Below, one piece after another: positions 6,881-53,900 of a DNA stretch of 64,000 nt. Made by a program: the position numbers and the translations under genes. Within the stretch, counting starts at the first letter, position 1. The number at the start of each line of letters is the position of its first letter. The stretch is from a virus, in the IMG/VR virus record IMGVR_UViG_3300032224_001477, positions 1 to 64,000 of that record; one strand, written 5' to 3'. The notes beneath the pieces were generated by a model. That model ran no database searches. It was not told where the DNA came from and was given only the letters and a program-made list of their open reading frames with translations.

Positions 6881-6908
6881 ATTCTGTCTACTGTCAGTTA
6901 AAAGTCAA
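6881..6908 (-). promoter_or_regulatory. Promoter-like signal before the portal gene
   Basis: On the minus strand TTGACT (6908-6903), a 16-base spacer holding GACAGTA, then CAGAAT (6886-6881), 10 bases before the portal GTG. The -35 overlaps the terminase stop codon. It matches other copies of the TTGACT-N7-GACAGTA-N2-hexamer pattern in this window. Confidence 0.55.
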
Positions 6909-8620
6909 TAATTTAACACAGGATCTTTATTGATGTCGATCACGCGGTCCAACCGGCGAGCCTGCTCTTGCCAACCCCCACTCTTCCTTGCCATGACGGT
7001 CCCGCCGGCCATTGCTCCAACTCGAACCCGAATACACTCCAATCCCACAAAGGCTGCGTCCGCCAAATCGGGACTCTTCCCTACCCGCGACTTGTAGTCT
7101 CGCTTGGACTCTACGACCAGCTTACCTCCGGCCATCGTGGTGTATTTCCTGCTGGTTAGTTCCCTGGCCAACTCTGGAATCACGCCTTTCAACTGACCGG
7201 AACGCATAAATTCAACACCACCAAACCAAAGCTCGCTTACCTTATTCCCGTATTTGTCCTTGGCCTCCACCATCGAACTTGAGCTGATCGGCAGAGTACT
7301 GGGCTTTTCTCCAAACTTGACCCGCAAGATTCTTGGAGACCACGTCTCGGAGATAATGTCGCAAAGCGGATCCCCCGCGCCGGTGGCGTCGACCGCCAGA
7401 TATTCCGGTGGAACTCCTTGCTTTTGACATTCGGCCATAACTTGCCGAGCCACCTGAAAGTTTCTGGGCTGTGGGTCGTTTACATTTTCTCTGATGATAG
7501 TGAAATCTTTAAAGTTCACGGTAGGCCCAGCTTCTTCCGTTCGTCCGTACTCCAAGAAATACAGCACCGTTCTGTCTCCACCGTTGGTAAACGAAGGATC
7601 GAGTCCAGCAACTACCTTGGGTGGTTCAATCCACTTGGGAGCTTTATCGACCTCGAACTTGCGGAAGTCTGCCTCCGAGTAAATAGACTCCTCTGCCCCG
7701 CCTGGAGCTGGAAAGGAACGAATAAACCGCCAGAAAGAGATACTGTGCTCGCCGTCGTGGTCTTCCGCGTGCCGGAGTTGCTTAGTCGTAAGCAAAAACG
7801 GCCAGGCGTCGTCATGCTCAAGGTTGGGCGTCTTGGCTCCGTCCAAGTGAAGGCACAAGCCAAGCTTTGTATTCCACTCCTCCTTATCGACCGTGACCGA
7901 GTTCCATCCACCCACGGGGGTGGCAAACATACCAAAGGGGTCGTATTGACTGGAAAAGTTACCCAAGGCGATGCATTGAAACGTAGGGTTAGCGTTTAGA
8001 TTGGAGATAGCTTCGAAGACCGAGTTGGTCACGTCGGTGGCCTCGTCGATGATAAGGAACACCCGCTGGTTCTTAAGACCGATAAGTTTGGCCGTGGCCT
8101 CCTTCTCTTTATCAGGGCTGGAGGGTACCAGAGTTATGGACGACCTATCGCTGGACTCCCCTTCCGCCAAAATAATCTTACCCATGGAGTCTATCAATTT
8201 CCCGGGAAAGCCTGGAACCTGCAAAAATCGCTCACGGATGCCTCCCCAAAGGCGTTTGCGGGCTTCCCGGATAGATGTGCTGGTAACCAGGACAAGGGTC
8301 TCGTGGGGGGCGCAAAGCCAGTTCACCAACCCCCACATGGCAAAGGTGGCCGTCTTGCCGCTGGACTTGGGGCCGGAGATAGCAAGGTAGTCCTGCTCGC
8401 AAGCTGCCTGAATCATACGCTCCGCCCAAGGGTGCCAGCAGAACCCGGCTTTGTTTCGCGTCTTGTGATACGGCCAGAGAATCTCTACAACATTCTTGAA
8501 ATGCTGAAACTTGCCCAAACCTCCAGTTTCCGGGGTCAAACCCAGCTTAAAAGCCATGAGCTCTATTTCGAGTTTTCCGGCCCCATCTGGCCATACCTTT
8601 CCGTACAAAGTCGTTGGCAT
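6905..8620 (-). CDS. terL: Terminase large subunit, 571 residues
   Basis: The DNA-packaging motor. The ATPase half has Walker A SGPKSSGKT at residues 82-90 and Walker B FLIIDEA at 188-194. The RNase H-like nuclease half starts near residue 337 with VAGLDPSF (Asp341 as first metal ligand), followed by LAVDATGAGD and, near the end, DLADAAF. Length is normal for the family and both domains look intact. It is the first gene of the minus-strand head operon. No convincing small terminase gene is adjacent; an HTH protein at 25818-26279 is a remote candidate. The ATG at 8620 has no ribosome site and lies 7 bases behind a promoter-like element. Confidence 0.95.
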   Translation of the reverse strand: MPTTLYGKVWPDGAGKLEIELMAFKLGLTPETGGLGKFQHFKNVVEILWPYHKTRNKAGFCWHPWAERMIQAACEQDYLAISGPKSSGKTATFAMWGLVNWLCAPHETLVLVTSTSIREARKRLWGGIRERFLQVPGFPGKLIDSMGKIILAEGESSDRSSITLVPSSPDKEKEATAKLIGLKNQRVFLIIDEATDVTNSVFEAISNLNANPTFQCIALGNFSSQYDPFGMFATPVGGWNSVTVDKEEWNTKLGLCLHLDGAKTPNLEHDDAWPFLLTTKQLRHAEDHDGEHSISFWRFIRSFPAPGGAEESIYSEADFRKFEVDKAPKWIEPPKVVAGLDPSFTNGGDRTVLYFLEYGRTEEAGPTVNFKDFTIIRENVNDPQPRNFQVARQVMAECQKQGVPPEYLAVDATGAGDPLCDIISETWSPRILRVKFGEKPSTLPISSSSMVEAKDKYGNKVSELWFGGVEFMRSGQLKGVIPELARELTSRKYTTMAGGKLVVESKRDYKSRVGKSPDLADAAFVGLECIRVRVGAMAGGTVMARKSGGWQEQARRLDRVIDINKDPVLNY

Positions 8621-15768: not shown

Positions 15769-17480
15769 GCATTACAACGCTCGGCCAGTGGCACTACCTA
15801 CGCGATCCGCGTGGAGAGATCTACATGGTGTCGATGGTGGGTGATGGGATTGAGCCGTATTGCGGTCCTGTGGACAAAGCTCCTTGGGACAAGATCGACG
15901 GCTGCCGGTGGATTGCGCACAACTACAGCTTTGACGGAGCCTGTGTTGAGGCTCTTGGTGACCGAATCAAGTCGAAGCCTGCGGATTTTTTCTGCACGGC
16001 CAACCTTGCGGCTTACATGGGCTCCCCAAGGGATTTGGAGGGTGCCTGTACCAACTTGCTTGGTAAGGAGATTTCGAAGGACCCGCGCAAAAAGATGAAG
16101 GGAAAGAAGTGGTCTGATATCGTCAATACTGAGTTTGCGGAGGAGATGACGCAATACGCTTTATCTGACTCCGTGAGTTGTTTAGAGCTCTACAAGAAAT
16201 ACGGATCAGAGATGCCTGAGATCGAGCGCAAGTTATCCAAGCATACGATTGAGATGGCGTGGAAAGGTTTTGCGATTGATCAGCCTTTGGTTAAAGAAGG
16301 CATCAAGAAGCTCGATAGGATTAAGTGGGAAGCCGAGCAGAAGCTTCCTTGGTTGGATCAAGGAGAAGGGGTTGTACTTTCTATAAAGGGTTTCAGGGCA
16401 GAGTGCATTAACCAGGGTATCCCGTGGCCGGATTCCCTCTCGGAAGATTCCGAAGAGTGTGCGGTGTGGGAAAAGAAGTACGGCGACAAGGTTCCCTTTG
16501 TGTCTGCCATGCGGGATTGGAGAAAATCCAATTCCTATTTGGTTAAGATGAAGGTGCTTGATTCTCGTGTGCGCCCAGATATGACGGCGTCTTACGGCAT
16601 GAAGTTCTTCGGGGCGCATACGGGTCGGTTTAGTGGAGATAGCCGGTTTAACGTCCAGAATCTGCCCAGAGAGCCGCATTTCGGAGTCGATATGCGGGGT
16701 TGTATTATCCCACGCCCGGGCAAGAAGTTCATTGTTTGCGATCTTTCCCAGATCGAGCCCAGGGTTCTGGCTTGGCTTTCAGGCAACACCCCTCTTCTGG
16801 AAGCAGTCCGTAACGGATATGGCATCTACGAAGCTTTTGCGATCTCGGCCAATCTCTGGAAGGGAGAAAAAGGAACACTTAAGAAGACCAATACAGCCAT
16901 GTACCAACTTGCCAAGGCAATGGTGTTGGGTCTTGGGTATGGCGCAGGAGCCAAGAAGTTCGCCTATATGGCCAATACAGCTTACGGATTGGAGATTGAT
17001 GAAGCAGAAGCGGCAAACATTGTAAGAACATACCGCTCCAAAAATCATCACGTCATCAATTTCTGGAAGAAGTTGGAAACGGCTTACAAACAATCCAAAG
17101 CAGACGGACAATACGAGATCGAGCTCCCCTCTTGGCGCTCCCTCAAATACCGTAACATTCGCACGCAAAACCTCGCTAGCGGATACGCGGGATACACAGC
17201 TCAGACCATCATGGGTGGTCCTCACGTTAATTTTTACGGTGGGAACTTATGTAATAACACCGTTCAGGCAACAGCCCGGGATGTCATGGCCGAATGCATC
17301 CTACGACTAGAAAAGGCTGGCCTACCCCTTGTCCTTCACGTTCACGACGAAGCCGTCGTGGAGGTCGACAAGGATGTGAAACCAAAAGATGTGGAAATGT
17401 TGATGTCGGTAACCCCGGACTGGTTACAGGGCTGCCCGGTCGCAGCCGAGGCCGTGGAAACCGAGAGATACGTTAAATAG
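15720..17480 (+). CDS. polA: Family A DNA polymerase with 3'-5' exonuclease, 586 residues
   Basis: Replicative polymerase of the T7/Pol I family. Exonuclease motifs: DFE at residues 7-9, HNYSFD at 67-72, YALSD at 145-149, so proofreading looks intact. Polymerase motif A DLSQIEPR from Asp340, motif B LAKAMVLGLGYG (Lys398, Tyr406), motif C HDE at 541-543. There is no 5' nuclease domain, as usual for phage enzymes. The residue matching E. coli Phe762 is Leu402; Leu at this site has been linked to temperate phages, which fits the integrase here. Followed by a 59-residue gene and the primase-helicase. Confidence 0.95.
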   Translation: MRNIAIDFESYYDNELSITTLGQWHYLRDPRGEIYMVSMVGDGIEPYCGPVDKAPWDKIDGCRWIAHNYSFDGACVEALGDRIKSKPADFFCTANLAAYMGSPRDLEGACTNLLGKEISKDPRKKMKGKKWSDIVNTEFAEEMTQYALSDSVSCLELYKKYGSEMPEIERKLSKHTIEMAWKGFAIDQPLVKEGIKKLDRIKWEAEQKLPWLDQGEGVVLSIKGFRAECINQGIPWPDSLSEDSEECAVWEKKYGDKVPFVSAMRDWRKSNSYLVKMKVLDSRVRPDMTASYGMKFFGAHTGRFSGDSRFNVQNLPREPHFGVDMRGCIIPRPGKKFIVCDLSQIEPRVLAWLSGNTPLLEAVRNGYGIYEAFAISANLWKGEKGTLKKTNTAMYQLAKAMVLGLGYGAGAKKFAYMANTAYGLEIDEAEAANIVRTYRSKNHHVINFWKKLETAYKQSKADGQYEIELPSWRSLKYRNIRTQNLASGYAGYTAQTIMGGPHVNFYGGNLCNNTVQATARDVMAECILRLEKAGLPLVLHVHDEAVVEVDKDVKPKDVEMLMSVTPDWLQGCPVAAEAVETERYVK

Positions 17481-17674: not shown

Positions 17675-19792
17675 ATGAGTCTTTACGCCCTGAAGAACCT
17701 GGCTTCCCTGGAGGTCACTCCAGTCGACGCTTGGCTTCATACAACGCCACACCCCAGCATGACCAAGGAGGAATTCTCTTCCTGGTCCACCAACCCCTCG
17801 ACGGATTGGCTGTTCATATCCGGCTTTGAGGGTCGTGCGCCCAACCTGCGTGTCTCCCGTGAGAACCAGGCGGTCAAGATGCATGGCCTCGTAGCCGACT
17901 ACGACGCTCAAATTACGGCCGAGGAAATGCTCGAGGGTCTAACCCGTCGCTCAAAAGCCGGCATGAAGCCCGCCTACGCCCACCGCACCATCAGTGGTGG
18001 AGTGCGAGTCATCTGGTTGTTTGAGAAACCCGTAGCCATCGCACCTGGGATATTTGATCCCTTCATCACTCGTCTGATGAAGGAACTCAACGTCCGTAAG
18101 CTGTTTCCTGGGCTGGATGACAACATCCGTAAGCCAGAACAGTACTATGCCTGGAATCCTCCAGCCACCGAAGTCAGCGATAACCGCGTTAAGTTTGATA
18201 CCCTCTGTGCCCTTCTAGCTTCAGCCTTTGACTCCTCTCACCGCTACCGGGGTGAAGGAGATACCGAGATTCCCATTGAGAAGATCAAGGAACGGGTGGA
18301 GAGCCTGTTTCCCGGTCGACTCCGTGGAACGCTAGATATTAACGGTCGTTGTAACGCTTTTTGGTCTCCGGATTCAACCAACCCGTCGGCTTGTATCGTT
18401 ACGGCAACCGGGATGGTTTCATTCTCGCAGGATCGGGCGTTTTATCCGTGGGCAGATATCTTGGGTGCGGATTGGGTCGATGAATTTAACAACACGCGTC
18501 TGGGCGGACCTCTGGGTTCGTACTGGTACGACGGAAGTAAGTATTGGCGCAGGGACATGGAAGGCAGCTGGAGAGACGCACCTTCGGAGACAGCTCGCAA
18601 GGACATTGCAGGCTTGTTTGGTTTAAGTCTCACCAGCGATGCCCGCGGAGATATGTCGGAGACCGACGAAGCTATGCTTCGCATCCGGGAAAACCGTCGT
18701 GTCGATGCCACCGGCCCCGTGCTTTACAGCCATGAGGAAATCGTGCGATTTGGCAGCCGATGCATCCTCAACACCTCCAGGGTAAAGGTGATGCCGCCAA
18801 GCAACACTCCTGGAGAGTGGGGCGAGCACTTCCCTTGGACAGCGAGTCTGTTGGACGAGTTCTTTGATCCGTCTGACAGTCTCCAGTACTTCCTGGCCTG
18901 GCTGAAACGGTTCTATACCACAGCCAGCGCCGGGGCCCCCGCCCAGGGTCAGGCCGTGTTTATCGCCGGTCCGGTCGAGCAAGGGAAAACCCTCATTGGT
19001 ACCAAGATTGTCGCCGCTCTTATGGGCGGAGGTTGCGATGCCTCCTCTCACATCAGTGGTGGGGATCAGTTCAATAACGAGCTCTTTGAAGTCGGCGTGC
19101 TCAACATTGACGATACCGTCGCTTCGACCAGCTACGAGAAACACCTTCTCTTCACCAACTCGATCAAGAAGTTTGTCGCCAACACTCAGCACCGCCACCG
19201 TGCGATGCGGGAGAACCCAACGACGATCAACTGGATCGGGCGGATCATCTTCACGTTGAACGATGACCCCGAATCGATGCGGGCGATCCCCTACACCGAC
19301 ACCTCAATCCTGGACAAGATCATGCTCTTCAAAGCGAGGCACCGGAAGTTCCCCTTCCCTCCCCGCCAGGAGATCGATCGGATCTTGGCCAGAGAGTTGC
19401 CCAACTTTGCCCGCTGGCTCCTGGACTGGACGCCGGCGTCGCATCTGGAAGGTACCAACCGGTTCGGCGTAACGAATTATCACCACCCCGACATTTTGGA
19501 AGATACGAGAACCACCCACCCTAACCACGCTTTCTCCGAGCTCCTCGATAAGTACCTCATCAATTACAAAATCGCGGCGAACGGGAAAAACCCAAAACAG
19601 TGGGTTGGTTCAGCGACCGACCTACTCAACAACATGCTTAATGATGCCGAACTCGAAAAGCTCGCGCGTCATTACGTTTCAAGTCCGGACCGCATGGGTC
19701 AGAGATTGGCCAAAATTATGGCTATCCGACCTGAGCAGGTTATCCGGCGCAAATCAGGAGGAAAAATCACATGGGAAATCAATCTGGAATAA
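17675..19792 (+). CDS. Primase-helicase (AEP-type primase fused to a D5/SF3-like helicase), 705 residues
   Basis: The N-terminal half has the acidic pair Asp75 and Asp77 (GLVADYDAQI) and a downstream SGGVRVIWLF strand, the pattern of archaeo-eukaryotic-type phage primases. The C-terminal half is an ATPase with Walker A GPVEQGKT at 432-439, Walker B VLNIDD at 475-480, and a TLNDDPESMRAIP stretch that fits motif C/sensor Asn of SF3/D5 helicases. It would lay primers and unwind DNA ahead of the family A polymerase. A ribosome site (AGGAG) precedes ATG 17675. Confidence 0.75.
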   Translation: MSLYALKNLASLEVTPVDAWLHTTPHPSMTKEEFSSWSTNPSTDWLFISGFEGRAPNLRVSRENQAVKMHGLVADYDAQITAEEMLEGLTRRSKAGMKPAYAHRTISGGVRVIWLFEKPVAIAPGIFDPFITRLMKELNVRKLFPGLDDNIRKPEQYYAWNPPATEVSDNRVKFDTLCALLASAFDSSHRYRGEGDTEIPIEKIKERVESLFPGRLRGTLDINGRCNAFWSPDSTNPSACIVTATGMVSFSQDRAFYPWADILGADWVDEFNNTRLGGPLGSYWYDGSKYWRRDMEGSWRDAPSETARKDIAGLFGLSLTSDARGDMSETDEAMLRIRENRRVDATGPVLYSHEEIVRFGSRCILNTSRVKVMPPSNTPGEWGEHFPWTASLLDEFFDPSDSLQYFLAWLKRFYTTASAGAPAQGQAVFIAGPVEQGKTLIGTKIVAALMGGGCDASSHISGGDQFNNELFEVGVLNIDDTVASTSYEKHLLFTNSIKKFVANTQHRHRAMRENPTTINWIGRIIFTLNDDPESMRAIPYTDTSILDKIMLFKARHRKFPFPPRQEIDRILARELPNFARWLLDWTPASHLEGTNRFGVTNYHHPDILEDTRTTHPNHAFSELLDKYLINYKIAANGKNPKQWVGSATDLLNNMLNDAELEKLARHYVSSPDRMGQRLAKIMAIRPEQVIRRKSGGKITWEINLE

Positions 19793-23435: not shown

Positions 23436-23467
23436 GATATCTCTTTAGGGCTATATTTTTCTAATTC

Positions 23468-23745
23468 AGGGTAACCTAAGTTACCCCAAAATAGAGGTTA
23501 CCAGAGCAAGTTGCCCCAAAATAACAGCTGTACTTCAATCAGTTACGGCAAAAAGGGTAACTGGGTAACTTGTTTTTCGACTTTGGGGTTCCCAAGCCCG
23601 GCACACGCAGCGCAAATATTTCACGCCAGATTATATAGATTAATATATTATAGTTACCCTAGTTACCCTAGTTACCCTAAATATTATAACGACAAATACT
23701 TAAAATGGGTAACTTTGAAATTTCTGGGGTAACTTAGGTTACCCT
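23468..23745. repeat. Iteron-like cluster of GTTACCC repeats, candidate replication or partition site
   Basis: Two 19-bp perfect inverted copies bound the region: GGGTAACCTAAGTTACCCC at 23469-23487 and its complement at 23726-23744. Each copy is itself a hairpin with a 4-base loop. Between them are two GGGTAACt units (23555-23569), three tandem 9-bp AGTTACCCT units (23653-23677), GGGTAAC at 23707, and weaker variants. An AT-rich stretch (23630-23652) lies beside the tandem units. The block sits between convergent genes. Iterons plus AT-rich DNA suggest an origin; a centromere-like or operator array is possible too. Confidence 0.6.
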
Positions 23746-23845
23746 AAAACCTCTTGATTCCGTCATGGGTAGTCCTCTTGGCTAAGACCCAGATAACAGC
23801 CACCGCTGCCAGAAAAATAAGCTTACCTAAGATTTGCCGTATCAT
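23744..23845 (-). CDS. Single-pass membrane peptide, 33 residues
   Basis: MIRQILGKLIFLAAVAVIWV is a hydrophobic segment followed by a basic tail. It overlaps the preceding minus-strand gene by 23 bases and has an AGGCAGGG upstream. The stop abuts the iteron cluster. Holin-like or inner-membrane anchor; unproven. Confidence 0.5.
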   Translation of the reverse strand: MIRQILGKLIFLAAVAVIWVLAKRTTHDGIKRF

Positions 23846-25756: not shown

Positions 25757-25772
25757 TTGAGGCTCCGGACCT

Positions 25773-25814
25773 CGTGGGGACTGCAAACCCACGGGGAACG
25801 GTTTATTAAACCGT
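25773..25814. terminator. Two hairpins between convergent genes
   Basis: CGTGGG and CCCACG around a 9-base loop (25773-25793), then ACGGTTT and AAACCGT around ATT (25798-25814). Located between the plus-strand gene ending 25756 and the minus-strand gene ending 25818. Poly-T is lacking, so the evidence is mainly position and pairing. Confidence 0.5.
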
Positions 25815-25817
25815 AGG

Positions 25818-26279
25818 CTACACAGAGATAACTGGATTACTGGCAGTTACTGACACCGAATCTTGTGGAAGTTGTTGTAAAACCGCGATGTTCACTGTTT
25901 GAGTTTTCGAGCCTTCCGACAAGCCAAAAGCTGTCGTTGCTACACGATTCACCTTTTCCAATGCAGTAAAGTGTTCTTCAACTTCGCCGCGAGTAGCTGG
26001 GGCTTCTGCCTCAAGCGCGTTCATCCCGCCCTCAACCTGTTTCTTTAACCTCGACAGATAGGATTGTGCTTCCCCGACCATTTCGTTCGTTGCAGCACGA
26101 TGCGCTTCTGCCACTCGTTTCAAAGATTGTTGCTTGTATGTGGCAAGTTTGAAACGCGCGACGTGACTGCGGATCGACGCAGGATTCACGTTGAATCTAG
26201 TAGCTAAGATCTGAGGTGGAATACCTTTCGCGTATTCCGCTTCGATCGGACCCCAATCAATCACTGAACGCTGTCTCAT
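25818..26279 (-). CDS. HTH protein, candidate autoregulated regulator or small terminase-like protein, 153 residues
   Basis: Residues 10-43 form a helix-turn-helix (YAKGIPPQILATRFNVNPAS followed by IRSHVARF). A central helical region and the C-terminal ALEKVNRVATTAFGLSEGSK, with NIAVLQQLP, resemble small terminase subunits. On the other hand, its own promoter carries two palindromes, as for a repressor. The start has no ribosome site and would be near-leaderless, like lambda cI from its maintenance promoter. The convergent hairpin pair at its 3' end ends transcription. I cannot decide between terminase small subunit and lysogeny regulator. Confidence 0.55.
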   Translation of the reverse strand: MRQRSVIDWGPIEAEYAKGIPPQILATRFNVNPASIRSHVARFKLATYKQQSLKRVAEAHRAATNEMVGEAQSYLSRLKKQVEGGMNALEAEAPATRGEVEEHFTALEKVNRVATTAFGLSEGSKTQTVNIAVLQQLPQDSVSVTASNPVISV

Positions 26280-26282
26280 ACT

Positions 26283-26320
26283 GTTGCAACGATTGTACCA
26301 GACGTTGCAACTCTATGCAA
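26283..26320 (-). promoter_or_regulatory. Promoter and twin palindromic operators
   Basis: Minus strand TTGCAT (26320-26315), 17-base spacer, TACAAT (26297-26292), 12 bases to ATG 26279. The perfect palindrome GTTGCAAC occurs in the spacer (26304-26311) and after the -10 (26283-26290), 21 bases apart, i.e. on the same helix face. This is classic repressor-operator geometry. Confidence 0.65.
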
Positions 26321-26381
26321 GCTACTGACAAACAACAGTCATTTTAACCACGATCGATAACCCATAACCAAGGAGACAACC

Positions 26382-26594
26382 ATGAACGACACCATGACCA
26401 CAATGCTCTGCCCTTACGCCGTAGGACAGATCATCGATAACGACAACGGCACCCAAGAGATCGTCAGGCACATCGCTAACATCGATGGTGACTTCTACGT
26501 GCAGACGAGAGTGCTGACCAACCTTGGTGGCTACTACAAGGTGCAGCCCAACGGGGCTTTGACCAACGGACTTCGGAGCACGTACCTCGGATGA
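26382..26594 (+). CDS. Hypothetical protein, 70 residues
   Basis: First gene of the long plus-strand belt of small genes. ATG with AAGGAGA upstream. The sequence (CPYAVGQIIDNDNGTQEIVR) looks like a small beta barrel; no family recognised. The stop overlaps the next start (ATGA). Confidence 0.6.
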   Translation: MNDTMTTMLCPYAVGQIIDNDNGTQEIVRHIANIDGDFYVQTRVLTNLGGYYKVQPNGALTNGLRSTYLG

Positions 26595-26806
26595 ACCGGT
26601 ACGCAGTCGTTTATAACGGCCACGTGCAACGGGAGTTCAAGCGTCGTGAAGATGCTTGGGACTACCTGGTGCAACGTGGCTGGCGTTGGTCCGATGAAGC
26701 TCACGTGAGGCCCATCAGGAATGAATGGTTTACCGGCTTACAAGCTCGCGGCCTTGCCGTTGAGTGCAACGCCGGCTTCCTGATCCGTGGCGTTGACGAA
26801 GCTTAA
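26591..26806 (+). CDS. Hypothetical protein, 71 residues
   Basis: Begins MNRYAVVYNGHVQREFKRRE and contains an amphipathic helix and several Trp residues (EDAWDYLVQRGWRWSDEA). Compact alpha/beta small protein. Coupled to the previous gene; the structured element follows 6 bases after its stop. Confidence 0.55.
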   Translation: MNRYAVVYNGHVQREFKRREDAWDYLVQRGWRWSDEAHVRPIRNEWFTGLQARGLAVECNAGFLIRGVDEA

Positions 26807-26812
26807 AACCAC

Positions 26813-27014
26813 AATCTTTGGTGAAAGGTGAACAGATCTAGGTATCGGCGTGGTAGCGGAGGGTTTGAAAAAACAACCCAGGTAGATCCTAGAGACACGC
26901 AACAGAACCACCTTCAGGAGACCACCATCCGAAGGCTTCTGTCTGAGCCGCAAGGCGTAGACGAGTTGGAGTAGCGACCAACAGCCTAGATCTGTTCACC
27001 TTTCACCTAAGATT
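26813..27014 (+). ncRNA. Candidate structured noncoding RNA, about 202 nt
   Basis: The ends pair perfectly over 23 bp (26820-26842 with 26985-27007) and, after one T-T mismatch, over six more (26813-26818 with 27009-27014). Inside are four hairpins: GCGTG/CACGC (26848-26852, 26896-26900) enclosing GGGTT/AACCC; ACAGAA..CCTTC with GAAGG..TTCTGT (26902-26942); GCC-GCAA-GGC (26947-26956); GTTGG/CCAAC (26965-26982). Almost every segment is paired, leaving no room for a real gene. It matches no RNA family I know. A DNA element with terminal inverted repeats is the main alternative; no target-site duplication is visible. Confidence 0.6.
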
Positions 27015-27028
27015 ACTAATTGAATTTC

Positions 27029-27061
27029 ATGCAACCGCGGTACTTTGCCTCCGCGTTGCAT
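27029..27061 (+). promoter_or_regulatory. Strong hairpin in the leader of a small gene
   Basis: ATGCAACCGCGG and CCGCGTTGCAT pair over 11 bp with one bulged C and a 10-base loop, 33 bases before ATG 27094. It holds TGCAAC and GTTGCA half-sites of the palindrome near 26283. May separate the structured element from the next gene by termination or processing. Confidence 0.4.
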
Positions 27062-27093
27062 CCTGACGGTAAGGCAAAACAAGAGGTACATAT

Positions 27094-27258
27094 ATGCGTA
27101 ACATGATCCCAATCGACTATGTCGAAGTGGAAGAATACACCAACCAATCAACCCTTGATGCCGTGAGCAGCGAGTACGCTGCCATGCAACACCCCATGCT
27201 CGAGATGGACGAAGCGTCCATGCGGGCTGAGTGCGTCCGGAGGTTCATCAATGATTAA
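27094..27258 (+). CDS. Acidic small protein, 54 residues
   Basis: ATG with AGAGG upstream, and overlaps the next gene by 8 bases. The product (MRNMIPIDYVEVEEYTNQST onward) is acidic and helical. Unknown function. Confidence 0.55.
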   Translation: MRNMIPIDYVEVEEYTNQSTLDAVSSEYAAMQHPMLEMDEASMRAECVRRFIND

Positions 27259-41939: not shown

Positions 41940-44900
41940 CTACAGCTTTACACCTTGCCGGATTAGCTCCGGTGTCAGCTGTGCCTTTGCAGTAGCGGTT
42001 GCTTTTTGCCCCAGCTTGGTCAAATAATCGTCTAACTGTTCGGTGCTCATGCGCTTCGCCATTGAGAAGAACGAAGGACTACGAACAACCTGGGCGATAA
42101 CCTTTCCTCGTAGCTCTCTAAATCTATAGAACTGCTCGTCATTAAGCGGGTAGTTTTGAACTGTCTGTCCTCTTCGAGCGTCTGGGATAAAGGCTTTCTT
42201 GGCTGACAACAGTTTGAAGAGAGGGTCTGCTTCAGAAGTATTGATAAACCTCTGTAAGAACAGCAACCTCTCCGGCCCTGCGGGAGCATTAACCACCTCA
42301 CCCAATACATTGAGTTGCGGCTGCCCAGTCATGCTCTTCAAGATCGGCACTTTGTTAAACAACCATTTACCCACAAAGCTTGTCTGTTGTTGCGGAATGG
42401 GTTCAAAGACTTGATCCGCTTGCTTAATAATGTTGGGCACTGCGTTGCCGACCGCACCCGAAAAGAAGTTCTGTGCGGCCGATACGTCCTGACCTTCAGA
42501 AGTTCCGTCCAGCATCTTAAACAAGTTGGACAACCCCTGCAGGAATGATTGATTGAAGGGCACCTGAATGGTAGCGAGCGCGGCCGATGTAAGCTTTTCA
42601 CCCATGTCTTTTTCACGACCCCTCGGATAGTTTGAGGTATCAAACCACGTTCCAACAATCGCCAATGGGATTGCTAGCGGGGTGGACAGATAGCTAACTT
42701 TAACGCTATTGCCACCAAAGGAGAATGAGTACGGTACGTAACCAGCTTCGCGTGCCTGCTTTCTAGCTGCAGGATCTGAAGGTCCACCACCAGTGATATT
42801 AAAGCCGTCATCCTGTCCGTCGTCGTCCTTATCTTTTAGCATGTTAGACAAGCCAGCCAACACAAGCATGCCGGCTGTACCAAGAGTTGCTTGAATAGCG
42901 TAAAGGCTGCCCTGCTCGATCAGCTTGATTTGTTCCAACTGTTCTACCGACTTAGCCAGCCCACTTGTCTTTTTTGTGCCGGCCTTACCCCAAGCCAGGA
43001 AGGCTCGGTACGCACCGATCGGAGTATAGTTGATGCTTTCGTTGGTAACATTTGAAACGATCTTGGTGAAAGGAACAAATAGCGGACCGAGAATTGGATG
43101 CTGTTGAGAGAATGTTCCAATACATTTGGCTATGTTGCCAAGCACTCCATACGGCGCGTTATTATATGTGGCGTACAAAGATAGATCTTCGGCCCGGCGC
43201 ATAATCGAAGCTCTCTCAGGATCTTTGAGTATTGCTTGATCCCTGAGTTCATATACTCGCTTCGTAAACTCTGCAGTGCCTGGCTTCAAACCCTCATCGT
43301 TGATGGCCACATTTGTAGCGTAAGCAACGAAATTGTCTGTTTGATTAAGAAGCCGAGCCGCCTCTTCTTCAGGCGACAACTTGGTAAGCCCATTCTCAAC
43401 ATTCTCGATTGCCTGGATCTGGGCTTGGATAGCTGCAAAACCTTCCAGTGCAGAACGGCCGAACAATGCGTCCGAAGCTGCCATAATTCGGAAAATATAC
43501 TTACCCTTGGACAGCACCTTTTTCATGAGGGTGTCTGTATCCATTGATTCAAGAGCATTGATACTAGCTTCATCCACGTACTTACCATTTGTTCTTAGGT
43601 TGATGTCTCCGTGAAGTAGGATTCCTTTAGCTTCTGCAAAAGCAATGGTGTGCATGGATGCCAAGAATGTTTTGTATCCTAGGGCCATGTACTTTGCGGC
43701 CAGCAGAGGGTTGCCTCTGGCTGTAGCTGCAGCCAACGAGTAAGTTGCAATATCCGCGATTGACTTAAAGGCCGTCGAGACAAAGTTCATCCAGAAAGTT
43801 GCTGGGCCTGAAAGCATGGACATGTACCAGTAAGCGGAGATCTGAGGGAGGGCATCAGACTTTGTCGCTCCGTGAAGAACTCTGAGCGCCTCTTGGAACT
43901 TTCTATCCTTCTGGAAGCCATCAGGTAATTCAGCTGCCTCTTCCATCATGCGCCTTAGGGTTTCGGCCGTGTTCACATCAAAAGATGGGAACTTACCAAG
44001 ACTGTCGATGCTTGAAAGAACCACCTCCTCGTTGATTGCACCTAAGGCAGCCAACTCAAGAATCTTCCTTGCGTCTCCCGCAATCGCATTCTCCAGGGTG
44101 TTGCCCGTCCGAGAGATTGGCGGCTTAACCACTTCGTGCATTTCGCTAAGCAATTGCTCAATGCGTTCAGACTTTAGCTCGGGGATGGTCATGCCCGCAC
44201 GGTTCACAATCTTTCTTCCAAGCGTACGACCACGAAGACTTAAAGCTTTTCCAAGCTGGGTTTGCATGTTTGCTTTCACCATGTCCGCCAACTCTTGAAA
44301 CCTAAGCGGAGCATTTTCGTAGTCGGGCAACAGCCGGGACAGCACTTTGACTAGGTCTTCCCCACTGAACTGCTCGTAGTGATTCCTGATGATAGTAACG
44401 ATGTCGTCCGCGTTGTTTTCTCGCAGTGCTTGAGAGTAAAGCCTGTTGATCTGTTCGATAAGGCTTTGTACGCCCTTGTCCTTAAGGGTGAGTCCTAGTG
44501 CAACATCCTGAAGCTCCCTGACTTCTTTACGAATTTCTTCGTTTTGGGTGGCTACCCTATCTTTTACACCTCTGCGGGTCTCAGCAAGACGCGTAATGTA
44601 TTCGTTAACCATGCCAGCCGGCGTGTACATCAAGAGTTCTTTTAGAAGTTTGTACCCAATCGATATTGTCTGCCCCATGTTGCGACCGAGATTGGCTATA
44701 TAGGTAAGAAGATCTGATGCTCTTTTGACCTGACCCCTCTCCCTGAAACGACGAATTGCGTAACTGGCGAGCAGAACAATCTGTCGCTGGTTTAATTTGT
44801 AGGGTTGACCCCCAATATCGATATCCTGAGTTTTGTCGGCATCGGGTCCAACCTGCGTTAACCACATTGAAATCTTTTCGGGACTTAACTCATCGAGAAC

Positions 44901-47900
44901 GCCTTCAACTGCCTCGATTGCCCCTTCATCAGCAAGATATGAGAGGTCTGCTTTTTGCGATGCTTTTTCGTAGGTCGGTACACCGTCCTGGTAGATCTCG
45001 GCCGCTCGGGCTGCCGCGGACAAAGGTTGAGCCCCGATCGGTCGGGCTTGATCAATAGCTTCTCCCAAAGAGTTTAACCCAGGAGCTTCAGAGCTTGGCA
45101 CGTTATACGACGGGGGCGCTACGTAATCGGAGTAGAACCGATCGTATACCGTGTTGATCTTGTAATAGGTTTCGTAAAGACTTCTCGCCCTTGGGTCGGA
45201 AGAGTTCTTAAGAGTGCTGAAAAGATTAAATATAGAATCAAGAACCGTACGCAACCACCCAAGGAACGACCTGCGTCGCGCCCTGGAAAAGGTGTCGAGG
45301 TTTCTTACCTGTTGCCTGGACTGTCCCTGGATCAGGTTGGATACACGATCTTGAACCTGAAGGCTGCGGACAAGCTCAAGACTCTCGGTAAACACCTTGG
45401 CGCCCTGACTCTTATCAAGCTCAAGAAGAACTCGGAAGAACTCAGCAACCAGCACTTCATCGCTTTCTTTGGTCTCGGGATAAAGTTCGCCGAGCGCTTG
45501 TTCAACTGAAACCGCTTTCTTGCCCGGCAACTTGACCATGAGCCCGTTGTCTTCTGAGCGAAGGAAGTCCGCTGCCTCACGAACTCTGGTGTTGTAGTAA
45601 GACACCCAAGATACCCCACCATTGGGGAAACGCGCTCGGTATTCTTTTCGGAGCTGTTCGAAGTAAGAAAGATGCGCCACTTCGTGGGTAATAAGTTGGT
45701 CCATCAAAGCCGCGGTAAGGTTGTTGTATGTGTTCCTTGCATCGCCGTCCAAGAATTTAATATCTTTCTGCTGGAAAAGTTTATCTGCCAGAAGTTCTGG
45801 GTTAACAAAGATGGTTGAGTTGATTGGGTCATTTGCGTTTTCGGAACCGCGAACCGTGAACACAGGGTATTTCTCTTTGGTGTTTGAGACGAAGTTGACG
45901 TTCTTTAGACCTCTGCGACGAGCAATAAAGCGAAGGTATTCCATCGCCTTCTCTTGTCTTGGATCCTCGAGGTTAAGAAGGTTTGAATCAAAGCTAACCC
46001 CGGCGTCAGCAAAGCCTGACTCGGTAGCATATTTAGCAGCTCCGGCCACATCGGCCTGAACCTTCTTCATCCTGGAGCGGTCCGCTTGCTTGATGTAAGG
46101 ATCGTTGATCTTGCGCATTTCACTGAGCGCAGCGGCCGAGTTAAACGGAGCACGACTTTCAAAGGCCGGCAGGAGAATGTTAAACAAGAGATCCTTGACC
46201 CGAGTCCTATCGTTTTGTGGGCTGATCAGTTCTTCCGGGGCCAGCGTGCGGTCGAATTTACCAACTGGGTCCAGCAGTTGCTCGATCATCTGCTCGCGGG
46301 TTACGCTATTGAGCCTGTAAATTCTATGAAGAAGATTCGTAATCCGCATCGCAGCGTCGTTCAACGACTCAAGAGGACTGTTTTCCAGAATCGCCAACAT
46401 AGCTTTAGAGAGTGAACCCTTACGCGCTACGTCCGCTACAATTCTATTTAGCTCTTTCCTAGGGTCAGTGCCTTTTGCAATATCCGCACCCGCGGCCTTA
46501 ACCGCAGCCCGGATCTCACTGTCCTTCTCGAGCTCTGTTTGAGCCTCTTGATCGTACAATTCAAGGACGTCCTTAACTTTCTGAGCATCCGAGAACTCCT
46601 GCATATTATTACGTTCAAGTTCCTTAAGAATGCCCTCGTACCTGTCTTGCGCGATTTGACGAAGCACAGGTTCTTGAATGAAAGAGGAAGGAATGCCAGA
46701 TAGTGACCCGAATACTTTGTTAAGCAACGCGCCACTGAGAAAGCCTTTGCCTTTTCCTTTGTCACCGACTTGCGACCCACTTTTGATTTTGATGGTGGGA
46801 AACAGAATATCCAGCTGGGCGTTGCTCTTGCCGTTGTACATGGAAGGACGGTATCCCGAAGTGAATCCAAAGCCTTCACGCATAATGATGTCATGAACAG
46901 CTCTGGGGATGAAAGGCAGGGTGTTGCGGTATGCGGCCATCTTATTGATGAACGCTTCGAACTTTGTCCTGCGTTTGTTTTTGGTTGGTAGTGTTTCATA
47001 TTTGTCTAGCTCCGTAAAATATCCTTCGTTATCGAGGCCAATCTGCGCGTCGTAATCACTGCCCATATCTTCCGGTGTGAGACTAGCTTCAAAGATATCT
47101 TCAACTGGTCTTCCCTCTTTCACCTCCTCTGTTCTGCCTTCAAGTGAAACAAAAGACTTCTCTCTCAACTTCATCGAATCTGCAATCAGACTAACCCGCC
47201 TTGCTAAACCAAGAACTCCGGCATAGCCCTCAACCGACAAGGATGAAACAAACCCGTATAAAGTATTGGTTGGGCGACTTTCGTCTAGGTAGGTACCGCC
47301 AAAAGGCTCTTGAGTCATGCTGTCGTACTGCTTGAAGATCTTTCCAAACAACGCACTTAGTCGTCTTCTATTGTACTCAGCATCCCTATTCCCCCTGGCT
47401 TCCTCGACCTTCAACTCCTCATTGTTTGTCTCGAGCACCTCTGGAGCTCTCTTGCTGCGTATAAGCGCCTCGATAAACACTCTTCGCAGCATCTCACTGT
47501 CCTTTGAATTCTCAGGAGTAGTGACGCTGAGGTTATCTACAAGGCTTCTAACCTCGGTTTCAGACAAGCCACTTTGCTTGGCTCGGGTTAGCAAATGCTC
47601 CAAGGGACGGCCGGAGCGCCCTGCTGCGTTGCGGTTGACCCCTACTTCGTAAGACCAACCCTTTGAAAGATCTTGTTCGTCAATCGGCGTATACACCATT
47701 CCGCTCTTAAAGACATTTACTGCATCTTGAATGATGCGTGGGAGCAGGGCTAGTTCTTCAGAGTCAAACGCTCCCTCGTCAATGGCTCTCTGCAGACGCG
47801 CATCAACATCTTCGAGGAACAGAGAGTTCATGTCTCTCCTGGTGTTCGCAGCCATTGATTCTACCAGACTCTTTTCAATGCTTTCGCGAGTCTTGCCGAA

Positions 47901-50900
47901 TCCATCCAGGTACGATTGAGCTATCGTCTGAAGCAATAGCGTGCGGTTCTTGATGTCGTCATCCGAGAAAGAAACATCATCAAGTGAAAGCGTGTCGACA
48001 TCCGCCCCGCGATCCTCTCTCAACCAGGTGTTGATCTTGTTACCAAGGGCGGCTGCTTGCTCCCTAGTAAGCGCGGAAATCTCTTCAACGGTCATCCTTT
48101 TTGCACCATAGGGCAGCTGACCAAGCCATTCGTTTGTCCTGTGGTTGTATACGCCTGAAACAAAAACGCCGTCCGCGGTCTTATCAAAACTTACGACATT
48201 ACGAAGAACCCTGATGACACTGTCCGACTCCTGCGTCTCTTTCGTGAAGTCCACCACAAAGCCTTCTTTAGCTCCTACGAACTGATTGAGAAGATTCTGA
48301 TGGGCGAGAACCATATCTTGTATGGTTACGTTTTCGGGTAGGTAAATGTACTGACCGAGCTTATCCATATCCCGCGCCACAACCGCCGCGGATTCCAGTC
48401 GTTTGTCTTGAGCTATGATTTTAGATTCTTCGCGTCCTCGGAGTGGGGCTTTATCTCCTAGATACTCATTCGTCATCGGATCTGTAATGCCTGTGACAAT
48501 GGCAAAACCATCCCTTGAGGTGATGTCTGAAGGGTTACCGAATCTTGAAATGTAGGAGATTCTAGGAAGTACCAGCATTCGAACGTACTTTCCTTCCGGA
48601 TCAGCCGCCTTGATGATAGCCGTCTTCTCTGGAGAAATTAACATGTGCAACCTGGCTGACTTAACGGCATTTGCACCTTCAGCTTGTTCCAGGGTCTGGC
48701 TGTATTCATAGCCACCCATCCCACGACTGACCTCACCTGCCCCCTTTTGGCTTTCGAGTTCCGGTATTTGTTCATCCTCAAGGCCCTGCCCATAAGACTT
48801 CTCACCCATAGCCAGTTGCTTATTGGCCGAAGGTTTATCGGTATAGGAAGGTACGGTGTCCCCGACTGTTGATACATTGCCACCGGCTATATTGGCGGCC
48901 GAACCCATGTCATCCGACTTCTGGGTGTAAAAAGCCTTCTGTGCAAAATTGGTTTCTTCCTTAGCTCCGAACTCAACATCGCTGTTAAATTCGTTTTCTT
49001 GAGTCGTGAAGAATGGGTGAAGGAGTCTGTAGAAAAGAGTTGTGAAGTCCCTAGGCAAACCGGCTACGCCATGGGGCTCAGATGTAAATATGCCAAACTT
49101 TGTGGTTATTTCCGTAATAATTAAGGCGCTACCGCTGGTCTCCACCCCGGTAAAGAACCCGGGGTAAGCTCTGACAAATTTGACGGTTTCCGGGTCTGTA
49201 ATTACAACCGGGCTGCCGTGCGAAGGCTTGTTTAATTCGGGCTTTTCCTTCCGCCTCGGCATGCTGGCCCCGAGCTTTTGCGCTACATCAAATGCAAACT
49301 TACTACGCCAGTCTTTACCAGGGAATTTGCCAAGCAGATTGCTTGCTTCCGCCCAACTCAAGTCATTTAGATCCTCAGGGGTTAGCTTTCTCTGTGCTTC
49401 CATCTCGGGACCCTCGTAAACGTTGATCGAGGTTGTCGGCAGCATGACGTCTGTGTCGGTAACGACGTTCGTGCCCTTGGCGTTCGCAATGAATTTGTTC
49501 CTAAACGAAAACGGAAGCGCCCGCATGACGTTCCTGGCTTTGTCCATCAGATAAAGCATGTTCTCTTTGAACACAACGCCCGGGAACTCTTGAATCTCGA
49601 TCGCGTTTGCTGGGGTAAAGATAGCTGCGGCAGGAGCTTCTTCACCGACTACCTCTCCATTCTTAAACAACTGAACATTGTCGGGTCTTAAGGGCGCTCC
49701 ACCTGCCCTACTGTCTTCGGCCTCGTAAACTTCGAATGTAGTTTGAACTGATTGCGGACTATAGACCTGGCTTCTTAGTTTTGGATCTTGATCAATAAAC
49801 TTTAAAGACCAACCCTCTTGACTCTCCCATGCGGCACGACCCCCGGGGGTCCGCAAGTCGGGAGTAACAACAGAAGTCACTACGTATTTCGTGGGGTCGT
49901 TCTCAAAACTGATCACATCTCCCACTCTTGCAAAAGCTCTGCGTGTAGTGCTCTTTCTCCTGCCGTCCTGAATTAATTGTAGGGTAGTTGTTCCATTCGG
50001 GTATCTGTCTTGCAGATCCTGTCGCAATCCTTCTTTCGGCACAGGGTACCGCATTGGTACTTTTGCAGGTTGGGCCTCATTGGTTGGTCTGGGTGAGTCG
50101 GTAAAAGGCAGGAAGATATCTAAGTTCGCAAGATTTCCGGCTCGTGGGTCTCTTGCGATAGCTTTTGCCAGCATCTGCATGTACGTGCCAGGGAAGTTCA
50201 AGGACCATGGGTTTTGCTCCCGCACAGCCAGATACATCTTTGCTAGAATATTCTGGTCTTCTGCGTAGCCCTTAACAATTTCAAGCGCTGACTTTACAAG
50301 GTATTGAGCATCCCTGGTTATCTTAGCTCCCGGCTTTACGGAATTCACCGCATAGATGGCTTCCTGCAGGGTCGTAATCTGCTCAGGAGTCAGAGGCCGA
50401 AGAGCTGGGGTAGCGCTTCTACCCATCCTGCGCTCCTCGTTATCCAGAATTACTTCTTGTGCGTACTTGGCTATGTCGAGAGGAGGCGGTGGAACAAATC
50501 TCTTTTTCGGGTCGTTAATCGCTCTTGGATCAACTGAATAGATTTGGTTCATGTAGCTGGACCGGGCCTGACTCTTCTTGGCTTCAGTCATCTCCTCTGT
50601 GGGAGCCATACCGACCCAGTCTGAATCCTGCCGACCCAACCCGTTCATCTCATTCATGTAATCCGTGCGTACGCCGTATACTCGTAGCGAACCATCAAGA
50701 GGATTAACCAGGGAGTTAAGAACCGCGTTTAGCTCCTGCACAGAAGCCTTAACCCATTCCGGTGAGTTCTTAATAACAATACCCATGTCGGGATTCTTCG
50801 ATATCGCTTCCGAAATTCTAGATACCCCAGACTCAAGCCAAACAATACGTTGAGCCCTTATCTTATTTTGCATTTCGCCGTACTGAAGGGTGACCTCGCG

Positions 50901-53900
50901 TATGCGATCCGAGAGCTTCTTTCGCTCAGCTGTGTTTATAGCGCCTTTCTTTTTCGGAGCATTCCGCCCACCGTCTTTAGAGAGGTCGCCAAACTCCTGT
51001 GCTTCCTTAGCCTGAAGTTGTTCCAACTCGCTAAACAGCGCAGTTAATTTGTTATCGAGATCGGTAATAGATGGCTCGGGCGGGACTTGAAGATCAAGAA
51101 AGCCACGCACCGGTTTGGCTTCAACTGCTTTTTTAGCACCACGTTCTTTTTTGGTCGCAGGCGTAGTTGCCGTCGAAGGCATAGGCAGGATCGGTTGCCC
51201 CCACCAGGTCTCACCCTGGGCACCGATGGGTTTTGCCGCATCGGATCTGGTAAACAAGTCGTCAGGATCAACGGTTCCTATATTTCCGTTTTGCTTGGCT
51301 TCAGCGACCACCTCTGTTTCACGTTCGTACGTACCCCAGAAAGATTTTCTGTAAGCCGCATCGGGTTGATAAAATGGCTCAAGTTCGACAAGATACTGTT
51401 CTCCTTTGGACCGGTTAAGTTCAATTACCTGGGGGTTGGTTTGAGCAATTTGTGAAGCTTCATCCACGCCCACTGATTCAACTCCATCGACTTCGTCACC
51501 AATCACTCGGATGTTCTTAACCTTTACAGTATAGGTGTTGTCTTTTTTGGAATAAGCAAAAGCCGTAAATGGAAATGGGGTTAGCTTTGTAATGCCCCCG
51601 GGAGCGTCTTTTGGGTTATATATCTTGCGACCCTCAACATCTTTTTGTGTGCCAACTATTTTTCTGCGTCTTTCAATTTCTTCAGATGTTTTAGCGGAAA
51701 GCAGTTCGCGAGCTTGCCGCCTGCTTAGAATAATCCCCTCAAGGATATTCTCCCCTTGGTTGCGTATACGCGCACTTAAGCTCAGGTTCTTATCTGGATC
51801 GTTCGGGTCTAGCGCTTGAGCTTCACCCAGCACACGATCCATATTTGGAATAGACGCGCTTCTTGTAGACCTTTTGCCCCCTGAAGGTATCTTTTGCATT
51901 TCTTTTTGCACGAAAGCTTGCAGGTCCGTTCCCTCCAAACCATTTTGCTGACCTGTCTTTTCGGCCCGGGCTCGCACTTCCTCAAGTTGAGCTGCTGTTC
52001 CTCTGGACGTTGTACCGCGTCTTTTCTTAGGCGCTGTGGCAAAGGGGAAAATATTTGCTGCTGTGCTACTTAGTAGTTTTACGTTTGCCGGAATCTTTTG
52101 ACCCGCAAATATTTCTCTTTCTCTTGTTTCCGAAAAAGTACTTACCCGCCCCGCCCCTTGATGAGCACCAAACATAAGCCAGTATTCTTTTCCGGGGTTT
52201 GCCTTTGCGTACTGTAAGAATCTTTCAAGCTGAACTCGAGCTTCTCTTGGGTTAAACGACTCGTTCGCACCTTGGCGATTGTTTTCGGCCGAGGGCCCTT
52301 TAAATCCTTTTTCGTATACCGGCAATCCATACGTTCGCCCATTAGGTCCCGTCTTGCCTACTTCAGCACCAAGCTCCTTTGCAATTTTACCATAAACACC
52401 GTTGTGGTTCCCGTTAACGTCTGTTCCAAAAACCAGAACACGGTCATTGGCTCGGATATCGACGGTCGGGTCAAACTGACTCTTAAGAGCCTCCGCGCTC
52501 GCCGCACGAGTCGTATACCTCAAAGGGTTGATTGAGTTCTCAATTATTTTTTCTGGGGATGCTGATACCGCAAAGTCTGTGCCCGAAGCCTTTGACCTAC
52601 CCTCGATAATGTAATCCAGGTACTCAGCTCTTGCTTCCGGATCATTAGGCACCGACCCAAGCTCTTGAAATAACTCCCTGGCTATATTCTGCGAATCCTT
52701 AATGAGAGCTTCTTTATCGGTACCCCTAGTAAATCTCGCCGTATTCTGAGGTTCGATGATAGTAAACTTTGAAGCGTTCGGGTTATCCTTGAGGAATCGA
52801 GCAACCCTTGGGATAAGAACATTTGCGCTCCTACCGGCTATAAATGTTTGCCTCGCGTCGGTGGCGATGTTTCGTTTCCTAGACTGCCCAATATCGTTTT
52901 TGTAAGTGTCCGGGTTCCCAATAACCACGACGAAATCTGAATTGTTAATGTTATATGAGTCCGCCTCGTCTGGATTTTCGGTCGTATCGAAGCTTGAGAG
53001 CAGGTCTGATTCCGACTCGGCAAGCGAAGGGTTCTTAGAACGAACTTTCAAACCACCACGATTTACCCCGTGTTGATCTGCCAGGCTTTCAGCTACACCA
53101 GCAAAAGGTCCAAAACCGCTACCGAGGTAGGTAAAGGCGCCCTTTTTCTTGGGTTTTTCTGTGTCTTGTCCTGCAGGGGCGGGGTTTTGAGATCCGTCGA
53201 CCTCATCCAAAGCAGCGTTCTCAACTATGTCAGGCCCGTTCAGAACATCGTTTACCTCAGTGGAATTAGTCGGTCGAAGCTCAGGAGTTTGGTTATTAGC
53301 AACTTTTTTAGCTTCTTTAGTCAACGCGCTAGACGCCTCCCTTGGGAGCTCAAGCTGGGCTTTTTGTTTTGCGGCTTGGATTGTAGGTGCGCTGGTCTGA
53401 CTCGGGAATAAAGTATTGGTCTTAGTCTTCTCTTCAACAGCTTGTTCTGTCTGAGGAATAAGAGTACGGGCTCCACCAAGGCCAAGCTCAACCATACCAG
53501 GAACCATTTCACCAATGAACTCAGCCCAGGCGTCGGCCGGATCGGACTTTTCCCCAATCGCTGCACTACCCGCAACTTCACCAGCCGCACCCAACATACC
53601 TTGTAGAGCCGCATCTCCAATACCTCGAGCGGCCAAACCCTTTAAACCTTTAGCGGTCTTGAAAAGCATTTCCGAAGGAAGTGCCACAGAAGCCGCATCA
53701 AATGCCCCGACTGTAACTCCTCTAGCAAGCGCCCGGTTCTTCATCTCTTGAACTTTTGCTGGGTCGCGAAGAACAGCAGCTACGGCTTCGGTGTTCTGAA
53801 GATCCCCGACTTGCGCACGCAAGTCTTCCAAGATCTTTGATCCACCCTCAACGAAGGCTGATCCAGCACCAACACCTGCCATAGTAGAGAGCAGGACGGC

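Follow-up and report, generated by a model that had tools for sequence, protein, structure and literature searches.

A phage intergenic element resembling a small, mobile, RNA-like cassette of putative role

In an uncultivated phage, an intergenic stretch of about 200 bases closed by a 29-pair stem, P1, raises the question of whether phage intergenic hairpins of this kind act as regulatory RNA, as selfish DNA, or as both. The relatives of the phage offer a natural series in which this can be asked: the element can be absent, a bare hairpin, or fitted with one of several unrelated or homologous interiors, at one site whose flanks are 86–93% identical. The window analysed here (64,000 nucleotides) is part of a 76,208-base IMG/VR virus record, and contains the following features.

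25757–25817, no strand assigned: window equivalent of site 2, empty (a related element lies there in G003, G004 and G019)
25818–26279, minus strand: terminase-small-subunit-like (TerS-like) HTH gene, syntenic anchor (alignment A2, 21 related loci)
26591–26806, plus strand: small upstream gene, 71 aa (ORF list)
26813–26842, plus strand: 5' arm of P1 (inverted repeat, 29/30 complementary to 26985–27014)
26820–26833, plus strand: 5'-arm double heptamer GGTGAAA-GGTGAAC, conserved (alignment A7, motif positions)
26848–26900, plus strand: internal hairpin 1, branched (RNA MFE structure)
26904–26940, plus strand: internal hairpin 2 (RNA MFE structure)
26941–26962, plus strand: internal hairpin 3, with a GCAA closing loop (RNA MFE structure)
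26965–26982, plus strand: internal hairpin 4 (RNA MFE structure)
26985–27014, plus strand: 3' arm of P1 (inverted-repeat search)
26994–27007, plus strand: GTTCACCTTTCACC, a conserved 3'-arm motif; consensus of the family GTTCACCYTTCA (alignment, motif positions)

The stem, its interior and its surroundings

An inverted-repeat search found the two arms to be 97% complementary, with 29 of 30 positions paired. P1 consists of six pairs, one T.T mismatch and 23 perfect pairs, just as a preliminary description of this DNA had stated. Folded as plus-strand RNA, the 202 nucleotides gave an MFE of –93.2 kcal/mol, as compared to –52.4 ± 4.2 for shuffled sequences (z = –9.8); the z values were –8.4 for minus-strand RNA and –9.4 when the element was folded as DNA. 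For the 142-nt interior without the arms, z was –2.7 on the plus strand and –0.8 on the minus strand, and the significance of the whole fold stems mainly from P1. Taken together, these values and the pairing of the arms indicate a stem far beyond chance, while the interior fold in the window is only suggestive. The four further hairpins of the preliminary description are all present in the MFE fold, which is a prediction, made within a subfamily that holds a single, 96%-identical homologue.

The gap was found to be free of genes, again in agreement with the preliminary description: the upstream ORF stops at 26806 and the following one starts near 27095. Every copy of the element lies behind a plus-strand gene with constant orientation, directly 3' of a small gene or of a short early gene, and in operon orientation throughout. 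In G007, G010, G012 and G013, which form a second sublineage, the element begins right after the stop codon of a similar small gene at the same place (translations compared by eye). No sigma-70-type promoter was found in 26250–27250, a consensus that may not be this phage's promoter type, nor any operon-strand terminator near the element.

The PHROG terminase small subunit matches of the TerS-like gene are weak, and 17 kb separate it from the large terminase gene (6905–8620, minus strand). Elsewhere in the window, a 27-nt inverted repeat at 23465–23748, with copies 230 nt apart, contains nested GGGTAAC/GTTACCC motifs (10 of the 18 window copies) and is conserved in every window-group relative covering it; this is likely a replication origin. 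A 4167-aa ORF occupies 41940–54443 on the minus strand.

The preliminary description could name no RNA family for the element, and Rfam 15 bore this out, with no match at the gathering threshold in the window and none at E ≤ 5 for the element (packaging RNA included). A tRNA/tmRNA search found none, and BLAST against 50,697 records of cultivated phages returned chance-length matches or nothing. No copies were detected in a GTDB genome scan of ~85,000 bacterial and archaeal species, within the gap range scanned; a Spirochaetaceae match proved to be an unrelated array of heptamer repeats, and three further matches did not show the element. Outside the phage family, IMG/VR matches to the arm pattern were mostly coding chance matches, P4-like satellites and heptamer arrays. 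The satellites (L078:3890–4097 and many similar IMG/VR loci) are prophages with GGTGAACAATCCACTGTTCACCCTTCACC repeats ~1 kb from a D5_N primase, and these repeats match the arms of the phage element. Inverted GGTGAAN heptamer arrays making long hairpins occur in the unrelated viral contigs L151, L153, L154, L155, L157 and L158.

Presence, absence and replacement among relatives

The phage is a member of an uncultivated family. Its 705-aa primase-helicase-like protein, with a weak DUF5906 match, a Walker-type GxxGxGKT motif and invariant blocks (alignment A3), has no homologue in cultivated phages; through protein anchors, we found it in at least 50 IMG/VR records. The element occurs in two sublineages, namely the window group (G000, G002, G003, G004 and G019) and the second sublineage mentioned above, whose primase is 47–48% identical to that of the window group. 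In both, the arms have the form GGTGAA-n-GGTGAAC...GTTCACCYTTCA, with one copy per genome. The 5'-arm motif GGTGAAnGGTGAAY is common to all family members, with GTGGAC in the site-2 copies (alignment A7).

Close relatives differ by gain, loss or replacement of the element at two sites, which lie ~1 kb apart on either side of the TerS-like gene. The copy in L043 (G002) is 96% identical to that of the window over 201 sites, whereas the sequence immediately before it is only 58–80% identical. L043 and L044 differ at nearly the same junction, the former being filled and the latter empty: L044 shares the left flank of L043, and its site is read through without a break as AAGCAGTTTAACTAATCC. L042 and L045 are likewise empty at the window's site, and a related element is found ~1 kb off, across the TerS-like gene, in L044, L045 and L174. 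G001 (72 kb) gave no element by pattern, inverted-repeat or covariance-model search and, being the best-sampled relative without it, speaks against an essential role.

The second sublineage comprises long forms (G007, G010) and copies reduced to the arms with a 5–7-nt loop (G012, G013, L200). G010 and G012 share 86% identity in the upstream flank and 93% in the downstream flank, yet the element is a 203-nt branched structure in the former and a 49-nt hairpin in the latter, and the inner stem sequences differ.

L043 is flanked by imperfect GCAGTTTAAC/GCAGTTAC. Such flanks are compatible with either insertion or deletion, so that not every case has a proven direction of change. We found no clean target-site duplication, only these flanks and an imperfect 37-nt duplication at site 2. 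There, the copies in L173 (near 18364–18530) and L174 (near 16737–16977) have imperfect duplicates of the 37-nt hairpin CCTCGTGGGGACTGCAAACCCACGAGGAACGGTTTAT on their flanks, and the window has this hairpin only once.

Two other inverted repeats were encountered in these records. One, TAAGTCGTTGATTTACTTGAGACGTGGTGTATATGGTGGAT, is a different 41–43-bp repeat with 89–93 nt between the arms (L197:14397–14571; also L198, L200 and L211) and is conserved in the second sublineage. The other, CTTACTGCGGGCATTGAAGTTAGTCCTACCGCT, has 33-nt arms unrelated to those of the element and a 121-nt interior (L202:16485–16671); it may be another stalk-and-cargo element.

Covariation of P1 and classes of interior

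Compensatory changes preserve the pairing of P1, and the operon strand tolerates G.U. In a test on eight copies and 26 pairs, 89.8% of the cells were paired and 10 of the 26 pairs were altered on both sides. The covariation score was 0.354 against a shuffled mean of 0.174 (0/500 shuffles reached it) and dropped to 0.02–0.08 when slid. The preliminary description had named a lack of covariation as grounds for giving up its proposal, and this is not what we observed. The inner stems AGATCTAGG, GATGTAAG, GGTGTAGG, GGTGCAGG, AATCCTA and AGTCCTA each have their complement opposite, with G.U counted as a pair.

On the plus strand, the non-Watson–Crick cells comprised 14 G.U (six positions) versus 1 A.C (one position), and the plus strand was the stabler fold in six of seven long copies, by 4–15 kcal, the strands of L052 being about equal. 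Such a large excess of G.U over A.C, on the same strand as the upstream gene, implies that pairing on that strand appears to be selected. The evidence points to a single-stranded fold of the plus strand, be it RNA or a DNA-strand hairpin, and RNA is favored because the plus strand is also the operon strand. Nine P1 pairs are invariant, suggesting a protein that recognizes sequence, beyond the needs of a generic RNase III stem. A C.C mismatch in the stem is conserved in six of the eight copies; it is reminiscent of Y1 transposase targets, with their imperfect hairpins.

The interiors of L174, at site 2 in the window group, and of L091/G010, at site 1 in the second sublineage, are clearly homologous (0/1000 dinucleotide shuffles). 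Their joint fold (alifold) beat column shuffles with z = –3.5 (2/500), and 11 pairs were doubly changed as compared to 6.2 expected (19/500). The interiors of L045 and L044 join this set (covariance model R1, 70.6 bits). Those of the window/L043 and of L052 matched neither the set nor each other, and R1 recognized P1 but nothing beyond it in either the window or L052. A suspected CGCAAGGC motif common to the window and L045 was not significant and was rejected. The homologous set, alongside the unmatched interiors, indicates several interior classes on one stalk. To judge from its sequence, the window interior, with no homologue beyond L043, constitutes a separate subfamily.

Possible natures of the element

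Our preferred reading, held tentatively (probability about 0.45), is that the element is a mobile intercistronic stem-loop cassette, with P1 as a processing stalk carrying an optional cargo, spread by recombination. The cassette would be co-transcribed within early operon mRNA. Its constant part would be the 20–30-bp stalk with conserved GGTGAAn/GGTGAAC heptamers, and its apical part a variable, optional cargo, ranging from a 5-nt loop to a branched RNA of up to ~190 nt. In the transcript, P1 would form a long duplex, either cut by host RNase III or blocking exonucleases, that sets mRNA ends between genes, and the long forms would also release a branched RNA. The intergenic segment may spread among related phages by recombination, with no enzyme of its own and with occasional relocation. 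In favor of this, ten phage records contain neither a Y1 transposase (PF01797) nor a reverse transcriptase (PF00078) nor an HNH gene. On this model, P1 is probably an RNase III/mRNA-end element. The preliminary description had proposed a phage ncRNA or an RNase III-processed operon element; the covariation of P1, the G.U bias and the plus-strand stability agree with this, cleavage being a predicted step. Against the cassette reading, interior z-scores are modest, the window interior has a homologue in L043 only, and neither a promoter of sigma-70 type nor an operon-strand terminator turned up nearby. Furthermore, a hairpin of single-stranded DNA could also produce the G.U strand bias, and some of the G.U cells of P1, several in number, are inherited.

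The main rival is a DNA hairpin: a REPIN/MITE-like non-autonomous element whose arms are recognition ends that fold in single-stranded DNA and are mobilized by an enzyme of the host or the phage, the interior being only a spacer. We regard this as possible though somewhat unlikely. Presence and absence, the two sites and subfamily replacement at one site would fit it, as would the equally significant DNA fold, the conserved C.C mismatch, and strongly conserved ends around a variable spacer that compensates, as reported for REPINs (PMC3116915). However, each phage genome has a single copy, the bacterial and archaeal genomes have none within the gap range scanned, the target site lacks a clean duplication, some interiors are homologous with paired changes, and the ten records have no Y1 transposase or HNH gene. 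The miniature inverted-repeat element of the preliminary description gains support from the swapped interiors, the variable presence and the two sites; the scattered copies that were to betray it are seen only in part, as two sites across relatives with one copy per genome.

It seems very unlikely to us that the element is a phage ncRNA that stands alone and acts in trans, as a decoy, a mimic of host RNA or a packaging-RNA-like molecule, with its branched interior active and P1 a processing stalk. It would account for the branched fold, the strand asymmetry, the conserved interior structure of the L174/L091/L045 subfamily and the adjoining TerS-like gene, but not for relatives that retain P1 with a 5–7-nt loop and no interior, nor for the lack of any detectable common sequence among the window, L052 and L045 interiors. 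The absence of an Rfam match and of the element from G001 also tell against it, and the packaging-RNA-like molecule of the preliminary description found no support in Rfam. Highly improbable is a replication or packaging site acting as DNA, such as initiator iterons. GGTGAAC repeats do adjoin the D5-type primase in satellites of the P4 type; GGTGAACAATCC and GTTCACCCTTCACC are common to P4-like prophage records, which carry a D5_N primase ~1 kb away. The phages considered here, for their part, all code for an SF3/primase-like protein. We nonetheless rejected a P4-iteron/origin as the main explanation: the primase-helicase was found in 12/12 records checked, including ones without the element, GGTGAAC is unenriched in the window (6 versus 7.8 expected) with no iteron array, and 23465–23748, with its GGGTAAC iterons conserved in G001 too, is a better origin candidate.

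Returning to the cassette, a bolder version seems quite unlikely: a new mobile phage RNA, with a heptamer stalk and interchangeable structured domains, excised from mRNA and exchanged at fixed intergenic ports. If the cargo in the interior is functional, the stalk would serve phages as a port for swapping structured RNAs.

Among known systems, the early mRNA of phage T7 has intercistronic stems cut by RNase III. Like them, the element forms a long duplex, sits between early genes and follows the orientation of the operon; it differs in its sequence-conserved heptamers, its mobility and its large variable interior, with cleavage only predicted. The packaging RNA of phi29 is likewise structured, encoded by a phage and similar in length, with a packaging gene nearby, but the element matched no covariance model of it or of other Rfam families even at E 5 and is dispensable in relatives. 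Retron and group II intron RNAs find no counterpart, given the missing PF00078 in the ten records.

REPINs are REP doublets forming hairpins, with conserved inverted ends and a variable spacer that undergoes compensatory change; like the element, they are extragenic and can form a hairpin in DNA or mRNA (PMC3116915). The element shares the two inverted conserved ends and the variable pairing spacer. It differs in occurring in phages, in having one copy rather than many (G000 and relatives), GGTGAAn heptamer arms and a longer branched interior, and in that the REPIN-associated RAYT (Y1 transposase, PF01797) was absent from the ten records. T4-type phages have mobile regulatory cassettes called promoter early stem-loops, or PeSLs (Arbiol 2010, Comeau 2014; via PMC4503421). 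They are likewise small intergenic stem-loop cassettes, variable among close relatives, for which modular shuffling was proposed. As compared to PeSLs, the element has no early promoter of sigma-70 type found beside it, a much longer stem, a branched cargo and one copy per genome, in a phage that is not T4-type. REPINs and PeSLs are its nearest known kinds. We group it more broadly, as a variant, with intergenic stem-loop cassettes, among which it would be a small, mobile, RNA-like member with a putative role.
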